Shown: positions 6,377 through 33,865 of the stretch, piece by piece | Numbering within the stretch: the first letter of the stretch is position 1 | How the letters are laid out: each line of letters begins with the position of its first letter | DNA from: Planctomycetaceae bacterium | Lineage (GTDB): Bacteria > Planctomycetota > Planctomycetia > Pirellulales > Pirellulaceae | NCBI GenBank assembly: GCA_021298315.1 | Contig: JAJTFC010000023.1 | Span: 1-64,000, forward strand | Length of the DNA: 64,000 nucleotides | Direction of reading: 5' to 3' | Program-made: the position numbers and the translations under genes | The notes under the pieces: model-generated | What the model was told of the DNA's origin: nothing | The model's database searches: none | What the model saw: the letters and a program-made list of their open reading frames with translations, nothing else

Positions 6377-8746
6377 CAATCGCAGTTGGCCGATGGCCAG
6401 TCCCGAATCATTCGGTGGCACTCGACGGTGCAAATAGACCTGATGACCGGCTCGACTCATCGCCTCGACGGCCAACTCCACGAGCAATCGATTTTGAAAC
6501 ACCCCGCCACTTAATCCAACCTGATGACTCTGCTTAGAGTCATCGGTCAGATGCACAAGTGCATCTGACATCATCGTTGCTATCGCTGCATGGATTCCAA
6601 AAGCGATGCTCGCTCGATCGATGCCGCTTCGCAGATCCTCAACGACCCCTCGCACGACAGGGCGACCATCAAACTCGATCGCCCCACCTTGGTTCTGCAA
6701 AACAAACGCGTACTTTGTATCGCCTCGCTCTTGAGAGTGCCCCATCGCCAGATCCTCGAGCGATATCGCCGCATGGCCTTCGTAGCCATTGCAATGTACC
6801 AATCCCAGGAGGGAAGCTAGCCCATCGAGAAAGCGACCGATGCTACTTGTTGGAATCGAAAGTGTCGATGAATCGAACACTCTTACCAACGCCGATCGCT
6901 GGGCCTCCAAGAGCGATCCCCATGGCGACTGCTCAGTCCAATCGCAGCAAGCTTGCAAGTCTTCGATACCCAGACCCGCATCGAGCAATAGTGCCAAGGC
7001 CGTACGCCAAGGATATTTCGCCGCGACATCTCCACAGGGCAATCGAAACGGTCGCAAATACCCAAGACGTGAAAATTCGCTTCGTCGTAGCCCGATCAAT
7101 TCTCCACCCCAAATCGTACCGTCGGATCCATAGCCGGTCCCGTCGAATACAAAGCCTATCAGAGGTTCTTCGGAAGGGATTCCAGCATCGACTCCAAGCG
7201 CCCCTAGGTGGGCTGCATGATGCTGAATCGATTGACAACCGATCCTCTGTGACCCATCGGAGTCGTTCCCAGCCAACCGTTTTCCTAGCATCGTGGTTTC
7301 GTACGCCGGATGCATGTCGATCAAGATCGAAGGTGCAGGCAAATCGCTCTGCAGCAGCTTTTGAATCGAATCCTCGATGCGTGTGATAACCGCAGGATGC
7401 GACGCGTCTCCTAAGTGCTGCATCAGATACAATCCTTGCCCGAGTGACATTCCCCAAGCTGCCTTGAGATCGGCGCCCAAGGCGATCCCACAACTGGAGC
7501 CGAATTGCGTTTGATCGATCGAGAGCCGACACGGTGTATCGCCTCGGCCCAATCGGATCGGAATGACTGCAACTTGAGCATCGCATACGACTGGATCATC
7601 CAGTGGTTCTGCAATGCGTCGGTTGTGCATCAAGATCGCCTCGACTTGATCACCGAATCGATCGAGGGCTTGCTGATCATCGATAAGCATCGGTTCGCTC
7701 GATAAATTGGCCGACGTAACAACCATTGGCCGACCTATGCGACGGGCAAGCAGGCACTGCACAGGACTGTTTGGAAGCATCACGCCTAAGGAATTCTCCA
7801 ACTCGGAGATCCATCGCCCCAGGCTATCTTGCGAGACTCCGTTAGGAGGCTTGCGGCTCGCGACGACGATTGGACGATGGCTTTCTTGCAAGGCAACTTG
7901 GGCCTCTCGCGAGAGTTCGACCATCTCTAACGCTTGGGCAAGCGATTCGACCAAGACTGCAAAAGGCTTGTGCTCCCGATTTTTGATCTTTCGAATCCGA
8001 AGCGTGGCTTGCTGGCTGGCTGCATCGCAGAGGAATTGATAACCGCCAACACTTTTGACAAGAACAATGCCATCGGTTCGCAATATCTGCTCGCACCGAT
8101 CGAGCATCGACTCGACGTGTGGGGGGCTCGTGCAATGGATCTCCTGCGCATGGCGTTCATGCCATACCCAAGTGGGCCCACATTCAAAGCAACCGATCGT
8201 CTGTGCATGGAAACGACGATTCGCAGGATCGGTGTACTCTCGCTGGCAATCAGCGCACAAGGGGAAAACATCCAAAGTGGTTCGCCCACGATCAAACGGC
8301 GTTCCAGTTTGGATCGAGTAACGCGGTCCACACTGCGTGCAGCTATTCATCAGGTAATGATATCTGCGACTCGCTGGATCGAAAAATTCGCGCAAGCAAT
8401 CTTCGCATGGAGCCATGTCTGGCAGGGCATCGCACAAGGTGAAGCCTTGCCCTTGGCTCAAGTGGATTGCAAATCCAACCGAGCAGCCTTCCGTACCGTA
8501 TTCGATTGGGATTTCATCGATTTGTTCCCAGTCGATGCGTCCAGACGCAGGGAGTTGCTCGTGCAGATTCGCGACGAATTGATCGATGTCCAAGATCGCC
8601 CCTTGGACTTCGATGCAAACTCCGCCGGCTTGGTTGCGAACCGAGCCGGTCAATCCAATCGCGGTGGCAATGCGGCAAACCAACGGACGTAAACCAAGGC
8701 CTTGCAATCGTCCCCCAAGCTTGATCCTCCGTCTATTTTGATTCAT
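6353..8746 (-). CDS. hypF: Hydrogenase maturation carbamoyltransferase HypF
   Basis: HypF activates carbamoyl phosphate and transfers the carbamoyl group to HypE, giving the CN ligands of [NiFe]-hydrogenase. All four domains are present in 797 residues. They are an acylphosphatase-like domain with catalytic R20 (GLGLRPLV) and N38, two zinc fingers (C114/C117 with C136/C139, C164/C167 with C186/C189), a YrdC-like domain (about 205-400), and a Kae1-like domain. The Kae1-like domain holds IQHHAAHLG, FDGTGYGSDGTIWGGE and GLSGGVFQNRLL. Its stop codon lies within the minisatellite, but the protein is full length. It starts 12 nt after the sarcosine-oxidase-like gene, so the two are probably co-transcribed. 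No hydrogenase or other hyp gene is in the window. Confidence 0.93.
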   Translation of the reverse strand: MNQNRRRIKLGGRLQGLGLRPLVCRIATAIGLTGSVRNQAGGVCIEVQGAILDIDQFVANLHEQLPASGRIDWEQIDEIPIEYGTEGCSVGFAIHLSQGQGFTLCDALPDMAPCEDCLREFFDPASRRYHYLMNSCTQCGPRYSIQTGTPFDRGRTTLDVFPLCADCQREYTDPANRRFHAQTIGCFECGPTWVWHERHAQEIHCTSPPHVESMLDRCEQILRTDGIVLVKSVGGYQFLCDAASQQATLRIRKIKNREHKPFAVLVESLAQALEMVELSREAQVALQESHRPIVVASRKPPNGVSQDSLGRWISELENSLGVMLPNSPVQCLLARRIGRPMVVTSANLSSEPMLIDDQQALDRFGDQVEAILMHNRRIAEPLDDPVVCDAQVAVIPIRLGRGDTPCRLSIDQTQFGSSCGIALGADLKAAWGMSLGQGLYLMQHLGDASHPAVITRIEDSIQKLLQSDLPAPSILIDMHPAYETTMLGKRLAGNDSDGSQRIGCQSIQHHAAHLGALGVDAGIPSEEPLIGFVFDGTGYGSDGTIWGGELIGLRRSEFSRLGYLRPFRLPCGDVAAKYPWRTALALLLDAGLGIEDLQACCDWTEQSPWGSLLEAQRSALVRVFDSSTLSIPTSSIGRFLDGLASLLGLVHCNGYEGHAAISLEDLAMGHSQERGDTKYAFVLQNQGGAIEFDGRPVVRGVVEDLRSGIDRASIAFGIHAAIATMMSDALVHLTDDSKQSHQVGLSGGVFQNRLLVELAVEAMSRAGHQVYLHRRVPPNDSGLAIGQLRLARSVRSV

Positions 8747-28679: not shown

Positions 28680-29774
28680 CTAATCAGGCAGGCTTGCTAC
28701 GTAGCTATCAGACATTCCGCCGATGGCTCGATAGATCATCAAATCGACAGTGTTGGAGATAAATCGAACGCTTCCGTCGGCTGCCGCGAAATTCGCACCC
28801 ACGGCATGATCGCTCGTAAAACCGTAGTTGTTTTGCCAATCCTGATAGCAGTTCTCAAGTCCTTTTCGGATCGGAGTTCCTGCTGGTGCGCCGCTGCAAA
28901 CCGCAGGAGCGTTCAAAGGAATCGCAACGGTTGCAACGCTTCCGTTGAACCAGAACCACCAATTGTGGTCGGTCCAGGCACCCACAGATTCACCGATCAT
29001 GACCGTGTTGCTCAATCCATCCTTGATTTGGGCAACTTGGGTGTTGCAGGCAACGCCGAACTGATCCGTTGTGCCGGGAGCAGGACCAAGGTATCCGGCA
29101 AACAGAATGCCATTCCCGTTACCGATTCCGTTTCCATTGTTCTTGAAATAGGGATCGGAGCCGAAATTAGGATCGCCGACAGTCCGATAAGCCGTAGCGC
29201 CCCAAGCCCAGTTCGAGCCGGCGACACCTTTGTAGCTGGTCACAGCAAAGGAGGCCTGGCCTCCGAGTACTCGCTGAGCGCGATTGGCTAGAAGCGTTGG
29301 AGTCGTATCGCTCGGGCAACGGTAAAGAGCGATCCTTTGCTGAGCAATCCATGGGTTTGAATTGGTCGTAGGAGCCGTCGGTCCGCTGATGTTTCGAGGA
29401 TCATTAACTACATCCCGAGTCATGTCCACGTTGCGGAAAAGACTTTCCTGCTCGACATAGGGCAAGATGTTGGTCATCCAGGAAACCTGTGCCGTGGGGG
29501 TCCAGGCTGTGTTGGGCTGTGATTCCGAAAAGATGTCTCGTGACCTTTGCCAGTTTCCAAGGTTGGAGGGAAACTGCTTACGGGCTGATTCATGATTGAT
29601 ACAGCCCATAGCGATTTGGCGAATATTATTGCCGCACGACATGCGTCGTGCCGCTTCGCGGGCAGCTTGGACAGCTGGTAAAAGCAATCCGACAAGAACG
29701 CCTATGATTGCAATAACCACTAGCAACTCAACCAAGGTAAAGCCCCTTGGGTGCCTAATAAATGCTTTGCTCAT
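28680..29774 (-). CDS. DUF1559 pseudopilin-like protein
   Basis: A 364-residue planctomycete-type protein. The N-terminus is a class III prepilin signal ([20 protein letters not shown]) with the conserved extension [15 protein letters not shown]. The C-terminal signature is the His and DGS pair in DHAVGANFAAADGSVRF. Such proteins occur in dozens of copies per planctomycete genome. They are thought to be processed by prepilin peptidase and to sit at the cell surface, but their function is not established. Confidence 0.92.
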   Translation of the reverse strand: MSKAFIRHPRGFTLVELLVVIAIIGVLVGLLLPAVQAAREAARRMSCGNNIRQIAMGCINHESARKQFPSNLGNWQRSRDIFSESQPNTAWTPTAQVSWMTNILPYVEQESLFRNVDMTRDVVNDPRNISGPTAPTTNSNPWIAQQRIALYRCPSDTTPTLLANRAQRVLGGQASFAVTSYKGVAGSNWAWGATAYRTVGDPNFGSDPYFKNNGNGIGNGNGILFAGYLGPAPGTTDQFGVACNTQVAQIKDGLSNTVMIGESVGAWTDHNWWFWFNGSVATVAIPLNAPAVCSGAPAGTPIRKGLENCYQDWQNNYGFTSDHAVGANFAAADGSVRFISNTVDLMIYRAIGGMSDSYVASLPD

Positions 29775-30001: not shown

Positions 30002-30029
30002 TTGACAGTTCCAAGGAGTTGCTTACAAT
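30002..30029 (+). promoter_or_regulatory. Sigma-70-type promoter of the arsR/His-rich operon
   Basis: TTGACA at 30002-30007 and TACAAT at 30024-30029, spaced 16 nt. It is the best sigma-70 match I noticed in the window. The predicted start of transcription lies at the edge of the inverted repeat at 30037-30060. Confidence 0.6.
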
Positions 30030-30036
30030 TGCTCAT

Positions 30037-30060
30037 TCAATCAACCAATCAAGTGATTGA
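30037..30060. promoter_or_regulatory. Candidate ArsR/SmtB operator (inverted repeat)
   Basis: TCAATCA at 30037-30043 pairs with TGATTGA at 30054-30060 across 10 nt, with a further AATCA copy in between. It starts about 8 nt after the -10 element, the right place for a repressor to block initiation or escape of the downstream SmtB-like gene. Confidence 0.5.
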
Positions 30061-30092
30061 CTGTCCGGTGTGTCATTCGTGGGGGGTATCCG

Positions 30093-30437
30093 ATGCAAAA
30101 GCCGATGGAGCTCATCGATCCGAAGATTTGCAGGAATACTGCGGCAATCTTCCGAGCCTTGGGGGATGCGAGTCGGTTGCAACTCTTGGCGCTGCTGGCT
30201 AAGCGTGAGATGTGCGTCACGGAGCTAACCGAACAGTTGAACGACAATTTGCCAGCGATTTCGCAGCGGCTTAAGCTCCTGCGGGCCGAGCGGCTGGTCA
30301 AGACCCGGCGGGAGGGTAAGCACATTTACTACTCGCTTGCAGACAATCACATCGCATTGCTGATTGAAAACGGTTTGGCTCATGGGAGCGAAGCCGACGA
30401 TTCTGTGTGTTCGAACCAAGAAACTGGAGAAACTTGA
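30093..30437 (+). CDS. ArsR/SmtB-family metal-sensing repressor with alpha-5 zinc site
   Basis: A 114-residue winged-helix repressor. The DNA-binding region reads ALGDASRLQLLALL, then LNDNLPAISQRLKLLRAERL and a wing (KTRREGKHIYYSL). The metal type can be read from the C-terminal helix: D84, H86, H97 and E100 reproduce exactly the D-x-H-x10-H-x2-E spacing of the alpha-5 zinc sites of SmtB and CzrA. One Cys (EMCVTEL) sits at the position of the ArsR alpha-3 motif, but the second Cys is absent, so a zinc or cobalt sensor is favoured over arsenic. Start ATG 30093 has GGGGGG upstream. The stop TGA lies 2 nt before the His-rich gene, indicating coupling. Confidence 0.88.
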   Translation: MQKPMELIDPKICRNTAAIFRALGDASRLQLLALLAKREMCVTELTEQLNDNLPAISQRLKLLRAERLVKTRREGKHIYYSLADNHIALLIENGLAHGSEADDSVCSNQETGET

Positions 30438-30439
30438 GA

Positions 30440-30787
30440 ATGTCTAATCATCACGAAAACCATGACCATATCCATGGAAAAAACTGCGGGCATACGGCTC
30501 TGGAGCACAATGGGCACGTGGACTACCTGCACGATGGGCACATGCACCATCAGACGCAAGCTGGCCAAGTCGAGGAGCATGTTTTAGAGATTTCTCATGA
30601 GAATCCTGATTCATGTACTGGCGGGCACGTTTGCGGGGCTCATAGTGCAGAGCACGTGCATGGGCCTGGGTGCGGGCATCCTGCCGTACCCCATGGAGAT
30701 CATATCGACTACTTGGTCGATGGCCATTTGCATCATCCGCATAACGGCCACTGCGACGACCATGGAAAAGTCCAGGTCGTGCAGTAA
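30440..30787 (+). CDS. His-rich tandem-module metal-binding protein
   Basis: A 115-residue soluble protein with 27 His (about 23%) and 5 Cys, and no signal peptide. Two 26-residue modules at 12-37 and 74-99 match at 16 positions, with consensus HG..CGH.A..H..H.DYL.DGH.HH. A less regular His/Cys segment joins them. It probably binds several zinc (or nickel/cobalt) ions in the cytoplasm. The coupled SmtB-type repressor immediately upstream suggests a sink or chaperone made when metal is in excess. I do not recognise a characterised family. A shift of metallochaperone function to a transporter elsewhere is possible. Confidence 0.8.
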   Translation: MSNHHENHDHIHGKNCGHTALEHNGHVDYLHDGHMHHQTQAGQVEEHVLEISHENPDSCTGGHVCGAHSAEHVHGPGCGHPAVPHGDHIDYLVDGHLHHPHNGHCDDHGKVQVVQ

Positions 30788-30933: not shown

Positions 30934-31042
30934 CCGCCCATGCCAAGGCAAGTTCGGTAAAGTCGGCAGTCTTGGCGAGCGTTACAGGATAGACCTGCCA
31001 AGCGGATTTAGGTTGAGTGTTCAACAAGGATGGTTGAGTTCC

Positions 31043-31552
31043 ATGTCCAATACAAAAACAGTCTTTACGACAGGCGAGGCTGCCAAGATTTGCAAGGTGA
31101 GCCAGCAGACGATTATCCGTATGAAAGACAACGGGATTCCTACCGATGCTTTGGAAAGCGGCAGGAAGAAACTGCTGATCGTCGACGACGATCAGGATCT
31201 GGTAGACTTGATGCGCGATGGTTTTGAACGCGATGGTCGTTTCGAAATCCGAACTGCCAACAACGGCTTTGATGCCGGCATGCAAGTCAAGGAGTTCCGA
31301 CCCGACTTGGTCGTCCTTGATGTGATGCTTCCGGATATCAATGGACGAGAAGTCTGTCAAAGAGTTCGATCCGATCGCACGATGGATACTGTAAAGATTC
31401 TTTGTATCTCTGGGATGGTCGAGGCCGACAAAATTTCGGATCTTCGATCTGCCGGTGCGAACGACTTTATGCAAAAGCCCTTTACGATCGACCAATTGAT
31501 CGATCGGGTTTGCGACCAGCTTGAGATCGAACGTCCTGTAGCGATGGTTTAA
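31043..31552 (+). CDS. Response regulator with a short N-terminal excisionase-type HTH
   Basis: A 169-residue protein with the reverse of the usual order: a DNA-binding segment first, receiver last. The N-terminus (FTTGEAAKICKVSQQTII) matches the first helices of MerR/excisionase-type domains. It then jumps directly to RMKDNGIPTDALESG, the linker before the receiver, so the second half of the HTH domain appears to be missing. The receiver is intact: LLIVDDD, phospho-acceptor D93 (VVLDVMLPD), the Ser/Thr switch and the Lys of MQKPF. Start ATG 31043 is chosen. A TTG at 31013 would add ten residues. The following gene on the opposite strand is a receptor Ser/Thr kinase, but no His kinase is nearby. 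Confidence 0.82.
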   Translation: MSNTKTVFTTGEAAKICKVSQQTIIRMKDNGIPTDALESGRKKLLIVDDDQDLVDLMRDGFERDGRFEIRTANNGFDAGMQVKEFRPDLVVLDVMLPDINGREVCQRVRSDRTMDTVKILCISGMVEADKISDLRSAGANDFMQKPFTIDQLIDRVCDQLEIERPVAMV

Positions 31553-31579: not shown

Positions 31580-33865
31580 CTAGTCGCGTTGCAACTTTTC
31601 GAAATAACGACGGGCCGCCGGATGGTAGGGTAAGCCTTGCCACTCAGCGGCCATTTCTTTTGCGATCAATCCATCGGCAAGCGTTTCGGATTGATAGAGG
31701 GCCGCCAGGCATTCCTCGACCAAACGCGAAGGAGCATCGCGGCGAACGACAAGCATTGCTGCGGTTGCAAGGGAACTGACGGGTTCCTGAATACTGCCAC
31801 GATAGGATCCGGGGCTGAACTGATAGAGGCGAAACATCGGTTCGGCCAGCGTCATCTTCGGAGCATCGTCGATCGACAAGAGCCTGTACTCTCCGGATGT
31901 GAGCAACTCAGCCAAAGCCGGTTGTTCGGCCTTGATGACTGCAAACATCGGTAGCTTCTTTGCTCGAATGCCTTGCGTGTTCCAGTCGCTTTCGACATGG
32001 TCGATATCTTTTTCGGTCATCCCAAAATACTTTAGGAGTTTCAAAGCTGCTTGTCGGGTACCGGAATCCTTGCTTCCAAGGACGACTTGTTGGCCTTTGA
32101 GATCGAGGATCGATTGGATTTTGGAATCGGTGGGGATGAGGATATGGATGGGTTCGAAGAACAAAGGGGCGACGACTGCGACCTGATCGGCTCGAACGGT
32201 CGATTCTTGCATCAGCGCCACATCGGCATGTTTATCCAAAAGCTGCTTAAGATTCTCGACCGATCCGTTCGTGGAAGTCACCGTCGGTTCTCGTCCACTA
32301 CCTGTCTTCATCCGATCGGAGATTTTACCAGCCAAATCATAGTACATTCCGCCTGGAGACCCCGATGCGATCGTGATTCGATTTGGAAGACTATTGTCAC
32401 GAAACTGACTCCAGATGCCATTTCCAAGCAGTGCGACAGCCAGCAGGCTTGCTGAGCTGGCCAAAAAGATGTTCTGCGCCCATCGCTGCGATGGACTCGG
32501 TTCGACTTGCCTGACACCAGTAAGGGCCGCGACGATCGGGATGTTGGAAAACCAGAAACGAAACCTCCTTGCTAGCGATGGAGGTCGCGCCTCGATGGGA
32601 TGACCGTTGAGGAACCGCTCGAGGTCGTCGGCAAATTGGCCCGCAGAGGCGTAGCGAAGACTCGGGGGCTTTTCCAAGCATTTTCCGACGATGGTTTCCA
32701 GATCGACATGGAGGTTGGCTTGCTGCTGCCTGATCGATGGAGCCGGGCGATGGATCACCTGCATGATCGTCTGCATGACCGACTCGGCTTGGAAGGGTGG
32801 TTTGCCGGTTAACAACGCATAGAGGATCGCACCCATGGCATAAACATCCGTTGCAACACCTTGGGCTTCGTTCTTGCCCGATGCCTGTTCGGGTGACATG
32901 TAACTAGGGGTGCCGAGCGTAGCACCGGTGGCCGTAAGCCCTTGTTCGGCACCGATCTGCTTAGCGAGTCCAAAATCGGTAATCACAACATGGTCTGTTT
33001 CATCGATCAGGACATTGGCCGGTTTAAGATCCCTATGAACAACGCCGTGCGAGTGAGCATAGTCGATGGCCCTTGCGACATCCATTACATACTTGACTGC
33101 CTGCTTGGCCTCCAATGGCCCATCGGCGAGCTTTCGTGACAAGTCGGTTCCTGGGATGTAGTCCATCGAAAAGAAATGGTGCCCGTTGCTCTCTCCGCAG
33201 TGATAGATCGTCACGATGCTCGGGTGTGTAAGCTTCGCTACACTTCTTGCTTCGCTATAAAAACGTTCGACCTCTTCTGTGCTGGCCAAGGCTCCTGAAC
33301 GGATCATCTTGACGGCAACTTGGCGATTCAAAGCTGTTTGGGTGGCCAGGTACACAACGCCCATGCCTCCTCGGCCCAAAACGCGTTGCAGGATGTAGTC
33401 CCCGAATCGACAAGGCAATGCCGCTTGGGTGTTATCCAGCGAAGGAAACTCGGCAACATCGCTGCGAGAGCCAGCCATTTCAGAAAGACTAAAATCGATT
33501 TCATCGGTTGCTCGCGCAGCGGCCGAGGGCAAATCGATCGTCGCTGCATTTGGGTCATAGACATCGGCGGGATTAGGAACATCCAAAGATTGGTCCTTGG
33601 GAGACTCGCCTGCCAATTCAACAGCACTCGAAGAGCGAACCTGAGGAGTTTCCTCGGGGTTGAGATCGCCCAAGGTCGGGCCGGCCATCTGTTGGATCCA
33701 GTCGGCTGTCTCAAGGAATCCTTCGAGCTGCTTTCGATACTCAGGGTACTTGCTGAGGAACTCTTGGCGGTCGATTGGCTGACCTGCATCATGCTTGCGC
33801 AGAAACTCAAGAAGAATCTCGTCGAATTCTTCGGTTAGCTCATCATCCGATGGATTGCCTGTCAT
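31580..33865 (-). CDS. Receptor Ser/Thr kinase with a C-terminal TAXI solute-binding domain
   Basis: A 761-residue membrane protein. Residues 1-60 are the N-terminal helical segment common in planctomycete kinases. The kinase domain spans about 155-419, with G-loop GRGGMG (163-170 region), K186, HRD 277-279, DFG 297-299 and GTPSYMSPEQA. One transmembrane helix follows (about 464-483). The outside part (about 495-760) matches the TAXI family of TRAP-transporter solute receptors: RITIASGSPGGMYYDLAG, STNGSVENLKQLLDKHADVALMQ, DLKGQQVVLGSKDSGTRQAA. The natural reading is that a solute bound in the periplasm controls the cytoplasmic kinase. Ligands of TAXI proteins are poorly known (glutamate-like or carboxylates in a few cases). 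No TRAP transporter genes are in the window. Confidence 0.9.
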   Translation of the reverse strand: MTGNPSDDELTEEFDEILLEFLRKHDAGQPIDRQEFLSKYPEYRKQLEGFLETADWIQQMAGPTLGDLNPEETPQVRSSSAVELAGESPKDQSLDVPNPADVYDPNAATIDLPSAAARATDEIDFSLSEMAGSRSDVAEFPSLDNTQAALPCRFGDYILQRVLGRGGMGVVYLATQTALNRQVAVKMIRSGALASTEEVERFYSEARSVAKLTHPSIVTIYHCGESNGHHFFSMDYIPGTDLSRKLADGPLEAKQAVKYVMDVARAIDYAHSHGVVHRDLKPANVLIDETDHVVITDFGLAKQIGAEQGLTATGATLGTPSYMSPEQASGKNEAQGVATDVYAMGAILYALLTGKPPFQAESVMQTIMQVIHRPAPSIRQQQANLHVDLETIVGKCLEKPPSLRYASAGQFADDLERFLNGHPIEARPPSLARRFRFWFSNIPIVAALTGVRQVEPSPSQRWAQNIFLASSASLLAVALLGNGIWSQFRDNSLPNRITIASGSPGGMYYDLAGKISDRMKTGSGREPTVTSTNGSVENLKQLLDKHADVALMQESTVRADQVAVVAPLFFEPIHILIPTDSKIQSILDLKGQQVVLGSKDSGTRQAALKLLKYFGMTEKDIDHVESDWNTQGIRAKKLPMFAVIKAEQPALAELLTSGEYRLLSIDDAPKMTLAEPMFRLYQFSPGSYRGSIQEPVSSLATAAMLVVRRDAPSRLVEECLAALYQSETLADGLIAKEMAAEWQGLPYHPAARRYFEKLQRD

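Follow-up and report, generated by a model that had tools for sequence, protein, structure and literature searches.

The closest described counterparts of the locus analysed here are the gene pairs SmtB-SmtA of Synechococcus, BxmR-BmtA of Oscillatoria and AzuR-NmtA of Anabaena. Each of them combines a repressor carrying an alpha-5 metal site, an inverted repeat at the promoter and a small metal-binding protein. SmtB and AzuR are described as sharing the ligand pattern DxHx10Hx2E; smtB and smtA are divergent, while nmtA is unlinked to azuR, which itself lies inside a znuABC operon (PMC8790569). For CzrA the alpha-5 ligands are given as D84, H86, H97 and H100, such that the last ligand is Glu in the SmtB version of the site and His in the CzrA version (PMC1665450). 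The same repressor fold and alpha-5 site occur in SmtB-type sensors with exporters as targets, among them CzrA and ZiaR.

All three elements have likely counterparts in the window, i.e. the whole stretch of 64,000 nucleotides that was analysed, with the inverted repeat being a putative operator and the metal-binding protein a predicted one. The arrangement is a single co-directional pair, unlike the divergent smtB/smtA and the unlinked azuR/nmtA genes, and the gene linked to the repressor encodes a soluble protein rather than an exporter of the kind controlled by CzrA or ZiaR. In contrast to SmtA and BmtA this partner is a His-dominated protein of 115 residues with predicted beta modules, five invariant Cys and no similarity to PF02069. 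Having no Pfam family and 5 Cys against 27 His, it differs from metallothioneins as defined by PF02069 and a Cys-rich composition. The original prediction had described the locus as a metallothionein-like system with a different sink. The alpha-5 repressor, the co-directional pair, the conserved promoter and the partner outside PF02069 agree with this description, in which the sink is only one possible role. The family of the His-rich protein is without a database name and occurs in two sorts of fusion; the zinc-responsive SmtB-SmtA logic is already known.

Repressor gene, promoter and putative operator

The repressor gene (30093-30437, + strand) encodes 114 amino acids. Its product matches the NCBIfam model NF033788 with 88.2 bits (cut-off 55) as well as Pfam HTH_5 (PF01022, E 8.6e-10), and thus has the winged helix of ArsR proteins. 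The top match among PDB sequences is SmtB (1r1t, E 3.5e-20). In this alignment D84, H86, H97 and E100, for which the alpha-5 zinc ligand spacing had been proposed, all fall on the SmtB ligands D104, H106, H117 and E120 (ligand numbering of SmtB and CzrA as given in PMC1665450), and the pattern DxHx10Hx2E/H is complete. The genome holds four ArsR matches above the family cut-off and two weaker ones; among the translations that were read, the alpha-5 motif occurs in the window repressor alone. PADLOC also returned matches for this repressor, which we discarded as generic winged-helix matches with no link to defence.

Upstream of the gene a sigma-70-like promoter can be read directly in the sequence (30002-30029, + strand), with TTGACA at 30002-30007, TACAAT at 30024-30029 and a spacer of 16 nt. 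It is adjoined by a putative ArsR operator, CATTCAATCA-N10-TGATTGACTG, at 30034-30063 (no strand assigned), so that the promoter and inverted repeat of the original prediction are both present. Its inner dyad CAATCA-AG-TGATTG (30046-30059) lies within a longer dyad formed by TCAATCA (30037-30043) and TGATTGA (30054-30060). The dyad at 30034-30063 was the best of the upstream region and was equalled in none of 40 shuffles. The inverted repeat expected at the promoter of alpha-5 regulators is of the 12-2-12 type.

Within the genus this arrangement is conserved. In 20 of 23 loci (the window counted) TTGAC-N15..19-TAnnnT is followed within 55 nt by at least one exact half-site (TCAATCA or TGATTGA), and a spacer of 16 nt is found in 18 of them. 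Among the three loci without this pattern is L005, which is truncated by the end of its contig. Both exact half-sites occur together in 6 of the 23 loci only. Near and upstream of the arsR starts of the genus the half-sites were found 39 times in 5,782 bases, compared to 7 times in 67,658 bases for the rest of the same loci. Besides the operator itself, the window's own genome contains TCAATCA-N0..12-TGATTGA at one other place, inside an open reading frame (C62). Inspection by eye of the 3 kb around this second site revealed no metal gene, and we rejected this intragenic dyad as a further target of the repressor. Among wider relatives a dyad was detected at p<=0.05 (40 shuffles) in 24 of 46 upstream regions with varying sequence and arm spacing, a rough count which leaves out 26 rows where the core was not located by the pattern and includes some wrong start choices. 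The dyad is therefore a candidate binding site that is well supported inside the genus and plausible outside of it.

The histidine-rich protein and its family

The second gene (30440-30787, + strand) begins 2 nt past the arsR stop on the same strand. Its product contains 27 His, 5 Cys and a total of 2 Lys and Arg in 115 residues, and position, length and His count are as originally stated. Two modules had been proposed as well, with a length of 26 residues each. The modules exist, while the repeat unit is longer, comprising about 36 residues: module 1 covers residues 12-47 from H12 to H47 (HGKNCGH...HNGHVDYLHDGHMHH...VEEH, 30473-30580, + strand) and module 2 residues 74-109 from H74 to G109 (HGPGCGH...HGDHIDYLVDGHLHHPHNGHCDDHG, 30659-30766, + strand). 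Aligning 53 relatives gave 38 invariant columns and aligning 55 gave 36, which mainly hold His, Asp, Gly and Cys residues. Each of the five Cys that the window protein contains occupies one of these invariant positions. Third-position changes dominate in seven of seven same-genus pairs compared, for example with 19, 10 and 53 changes at codon positions 1, 2 and 3 for L002. The invariant columns, this third-position bias, a dyad that shuffles did not match and the enrichment of the half-sites show that the gene pair is not a chance occurrence.

AlphaFold2 predicts two beta modules of four strands each for the window protein and one short additional terminal strand (mean pLDDT 87.1, pTM 0.79). 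For a Bradyrhizobium member, again two four-stranded beta modules were obtained (mean pLDDT 85.0), with alignment rows that are mostly common to both runs. A Foldseek search of the window model against the PDB gave no match at E<=0.001. Searching PDB sequences with a profile returned a single match, to a capsid fusion at E 0.051. The window protein has no family match in Pfam, NCBIfam or PHROGs, and for the 55 aligned members the best match to Pfam and NCBIfam reached E 0.019. The first reading of the sequence had not recognised the family either. The HGDH-type motif HxxHx[HD] presumably resembles that of the streptococcal Pht histidine-triad proteins. A relation to PhtA (PDB 2cs7) was nevertheless rejected, as the Foldseek match was not significant (E 7.4, rank 41) and the window protein has no Pfam match.

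Among 60 genomes including the window's own, the His-rich protein was found in 32, namely in the own genome, in 23 of 26 other genus members and in 8 of 33 more distant genomes. Scanning contigs of 84,980 species provided 242 relatives; the analysis used the best 80 of them. These 80 include close relatives and, by their titles, members of Planctomycetota, Pseudomonadota, Acidobacteria, Myxococcales, Gemmatimonas, Leptospiraceae, Nitrospina, Opitutia and a cyanobacterium. Samples of individual phyla, named after inference from their centre genomes, contained the protein in 10 of 199 genomes (the window's phylum), 7 of 398 (the Vreelandella phylum), 11 of 199 (the Granulicella phylum), 35 of 188 (the phylum of a Polyangiaceae genome) and 1 of 194 (the phylum of an Opitutae genome), with the centre genome being counted in the latter four. 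Matches were also present in 17 of 72,556 plasmid records, including Bacillota and Actinomycetota. The two-gene unit and the family are thus real, and the family is widespread yet patchy across phyla, strongly conserved and without a Pfam or NCBIfam model. In the open-access PMC literature we recognised no paper describing this protein, which does not prove its absence from print.

Four plasmid records name short members "zinc transporter permease", even though these members have no permease domain; the label may stem from fusions of the module to ABC-3 permeases (see below). The plasmid-borne members include L124, L139 and L140 (Rhodococcus, Streptomyces), where a short one-module Rhodococcus gene carries this annotation, and L125 and L126 (Pediococcus and Pantoea), which lie behind annotated ArsR/SmtB genes. 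Two unannotated human-faecal "Bacteriophage sp." contigs (MT837699.1 and MT836058.1) each encode a match to the protein in two pieces. Two distant standalone relatives (L147:1489-1899, - strand, and L148:1435-1782) have an N-terminus that by eye resembles a signal peptide, so that some relatives may act outside the cytosol, perhaps as a branch of secreted or periplasmic proteins. A recently described protein that is comparable in being a patchily distributed bacterial zinc-handling protein with similar gene neighbours is ZepA, found near Fur-family, COG0523, DksA and ZnuA/ZupT genes; it differs in being described as a zinc exoprotein that carries a signal peptide and a PEP-CTERM domain and is tied to Zur (PMC10957091).

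Genomic partners of the histidine-rich protein

Co-occurrence of the module with alpha-5 ArsR regulators, which the original prediction had put forward as a check, was found for part of the family. Among the best 80 of the 242 loci, 47 have an ArsR gene with the exact motif DxHx10HxxE on the same strand, ending at most 250 bases upstream. One further locus has an upstream ArsR without the exact motif, two consist of a single ArsR-His frame, one has the ArsR downstream, and in two it is encoded on the opposite strand, once as an adjacent divergent gene and once at a distance of 2 kb. No near ArsR was present in 26 of these 80 loci despite enough upstream sequence, with L109 among them having an ArsR at a distance of 3 kb; one locus was too short upstream. 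Of the distinct linked ArsR proteins that could be placed, 43 of 46 have the exact alpha-5 motif; it is broken in the linked ArsR of L007/L031 (E to Q), L023 and L100.

A similar picture was obtained from the phylum samples, for which 50 standalone genes were counted (fetched loci with about 1.5 kb flank, leaving out centre genomes, seven permease fusions and eight further matches of the Myxococcota sample that had no locus). For 22 genes an ArsR was either fused or encoded upstream in the same orientation, and 21 of these 22 regulators carry DxHx10Hxx[E/H], 13 in the E form and 8 in the CzrA-like H form, with one being incomplete. For 25 of the 50 genes there was no near ArsR, two loci were short and one had another arrangement. 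In the Pseudomonadota sample all six genes were without an ArsR within about 1.5 kb, while several Pseudomonadota among the best 80 loci do have one. Since half of the phylum-sample genes have no ArsR nearby, the module is more general than the operon in the window. With 26 of the best 80 loci, 25 of 50 and six of six Pseudomonadota genes lacking a near ArsR, zinc derepression through a linked ArsR cannot be a general rule of the family. Fusions of both proteins into a single frame were seen at L075:4650-5336 (a Xanthobacteraceae bacterium) and twice in the Granulicella phylum, at L100:4518-5333, where one alpha-5 His is replaced by Tyr, and at L159:1495-2259 (- strand), where the site is intact.

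A second sort of fusion joins the module to zinc-import-type permeases. In seven fetched loci of the Myxococcota sample (L191-L197) the same kind of His module, similar to module 2 of the window protein, forms the C-terminus of an ABC-3 (ZnuB-type) permease, with two copies in L191 and one in each of L192-L197. All seven proteins scanned match PF00950 (E 9.5e-39 to 7.5e-35), a membrane domain which according to Pfam is absent from the window protein, where no membrane part is present. Genes near the His gene point in the same direction as the fusions. Cluster HMMs detected ZIP at 9, Fur-family at 12 (two of them weak), COG0523 at 6 and ABC-3 permease genes at 3 of the best 80 of the 242 loci, and Pfam confirmed ZIP, Fur-family, CobW/COG0523, ZnuA and ABC-3 genes in the members scanned. 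At least one zinc-type neighbour occurs at 17 of these best 80 loci, a count that stands without a background control. In planctomycetes ZIP is divergent to the arsR-his pair in eight loci, and a Fur-family gene follows 3' of the His gene on the same strand in seven. Together, the ZIP, ABC-3, ZnuA, COG0523 and Fur-family neighbours and the permease fusions suggest zinc as the likely metal.

Adjoining the operon of the window itself we identified no zinc gene. By eye, its neighbours resemble a pilin with a type IV methylation-type start (28680-29774, - strand), a response regulator with an excisionase-like start (31013-31552, + strand) and a serine/threonine kinase (31580-33865, - strand), for none of which a metal link was seen.

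For members without an ArsR we scanned up to 350 bases upstream with a gamma-proteobacterial Zur-box consensus. The 50 rows, representing 46 distinct genes as judged by the last 80 residues, gave three weak matches where about two would be expected, and two of the three represent one and the same position in a genome. Being at chance level, this count does not support Zur control of the ArsR-less members, and we dropped the idea. Outside these 50 rows, L072, where an ArsR lies 2 kb off, carries a Zur-like box with two mismatches, placed some 140 bases before the start of the His gene. In Marinobacter (L059:2208-9139) three COG0523-cluster genes and a DksA-like gene flank the His gene, and a perfect match to the Zur consensus is found at 7049, at a gene other than the His gene. 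This locus looks like a zinc-starvation island.

Possible roles in zinc handling

We consider it fairly probable that the window carries a zinc-derepressed operon for a cytosolic zinc buffer and acceptor, in which an unrelated protein is used within the logic of SmtB-SmtA. The inferred parts of this reading are that the protein binds metal, which metal it binds and that the operon is derepressed. A repressor dimer bound to the dyad, which lies directly after the -10 box, would keep the operon off. When cytosolic zinc rises, the alpha-5 sites across the dimer would be filled and the repressor would leave the DNA, as expected from the chemistry of SmtB and CzrA. Repressor and His-rich protein, whose gene order is observed, would then be co-produced from one short transcript. 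The His-rich protein, with its two predicted beta-meander modules and invariant His, Asp and Cys, would bind several cytosolic zinc ions and serve as buffer and as acceptor for incoming zinc. Once free zinc falls the repressor would rebind, closing a feedback loop. A module fused to a ZnuB-type permease would take over zinc on entry, and fusion to ArsR would place sensor and buffer in one chain. A buffer and acceptor fits the data better than a detoxification sink alone, because the module forms the tail of ABC-3 permeases and often lacks a linked ArsR.

ZIP and ZnuABC neighbours and the permease fusions are import machinery, as would be expected for an acceptor or chaperone more than for a protein that serves purely as a detoxification sink. 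Accordingly the module might be primarily a metallochaperone for import that receives zinc from ZnuB- or ZIP-type importers and passes it to clients, with ArsR merely setting its amount. The C-terminal fusions to ABC-3 permeases, the ZIP, ABC-3/ZnuA and COG0523 neighbours, a Paraburkholderia megaplasmid where a His gene adjoins an annotated zinc ABC operon, and the Zur-like box of L072 are in line with such a role. We regard it as a realistic but less probable reading than the buffer and acceptor, given that a directly linked regulator is nearly always an alpha-5 ArsR and that Zur-like boxes at ArsR-less genes did not exceed chance. The tight coupling of both genes could also reflect a His-rich protein that, when metal-loaded, binds ArsR and sets its response, in the way that SrnR is described to sense metal only jointly with SrnQ (PMC1665450). 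The fusions of ArsR and His module in one frame, which occur in two groups of bacteria (L075; L100 and L159), are suggestive of this, no more. The ArsR has a complete metal site of its own, however, and it is not an obligatory partner, because roughly one gene in two lacks a linked ArsR and the module is fused to permeases as well, so that we hold a co-regulator to be improbable.

As to the choice of metal, His-rich proteins are often nickel binders, and the pair could be read as a nickel or cobalt store like Hpn under a nickel- or cobalt-sensing alpha-5 ArsR like NmtR. Alpha-5 sites able to sense these metals are described (PMC1665450, PMC8790569). A NicO/DsbD_2-type cluster is present near 7 of the best 80 of the 242 loci, with NicO matched in both members scanned, and a UreG-like gene lies upstream in three Acinetobacter loci (L068 and L095 by eye, L102 by the same gene cluster). 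The fusions and the commoner neighbours are zinc-type transporters and regulators, though, and with its four ligands the alpha-5 site corresponds to that of SmtB and CzrA, both of them zinc sensors, which makes nickel or cobalt a less likely candidate. Returning to zinc buffering, a broader reading would see in the module a general folded, His-dominated zinc-handling domain, a "histidine metallothionein", that bacteria use in three or more arrangements: as a free protein under an alpha-5 zinc sensor, welded to the sensor in one self-titrating chain, or as the receiving tail of an importer. We put this forward tentatively, as a possibility that falls somewhat short of an even chance.

Classical bacterial metallothioneins are patchy, with PF02069 detected in 1 of 14 control genomes and in none of the 60 genomes searched (the window's own included), and to our knowledge it is an open question which other proteins buffer cytosolic zinc. 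A short protein family that crosses phyla and has zinc-type sensors and import-type permeases as partners gives a direct and testable prediction of zinc buffering. The ABC-3 permease fusions provide a route to studying how the cytosol receives imported zinc. In place of the label "zinc transporter permease", the family merits a model of its own.
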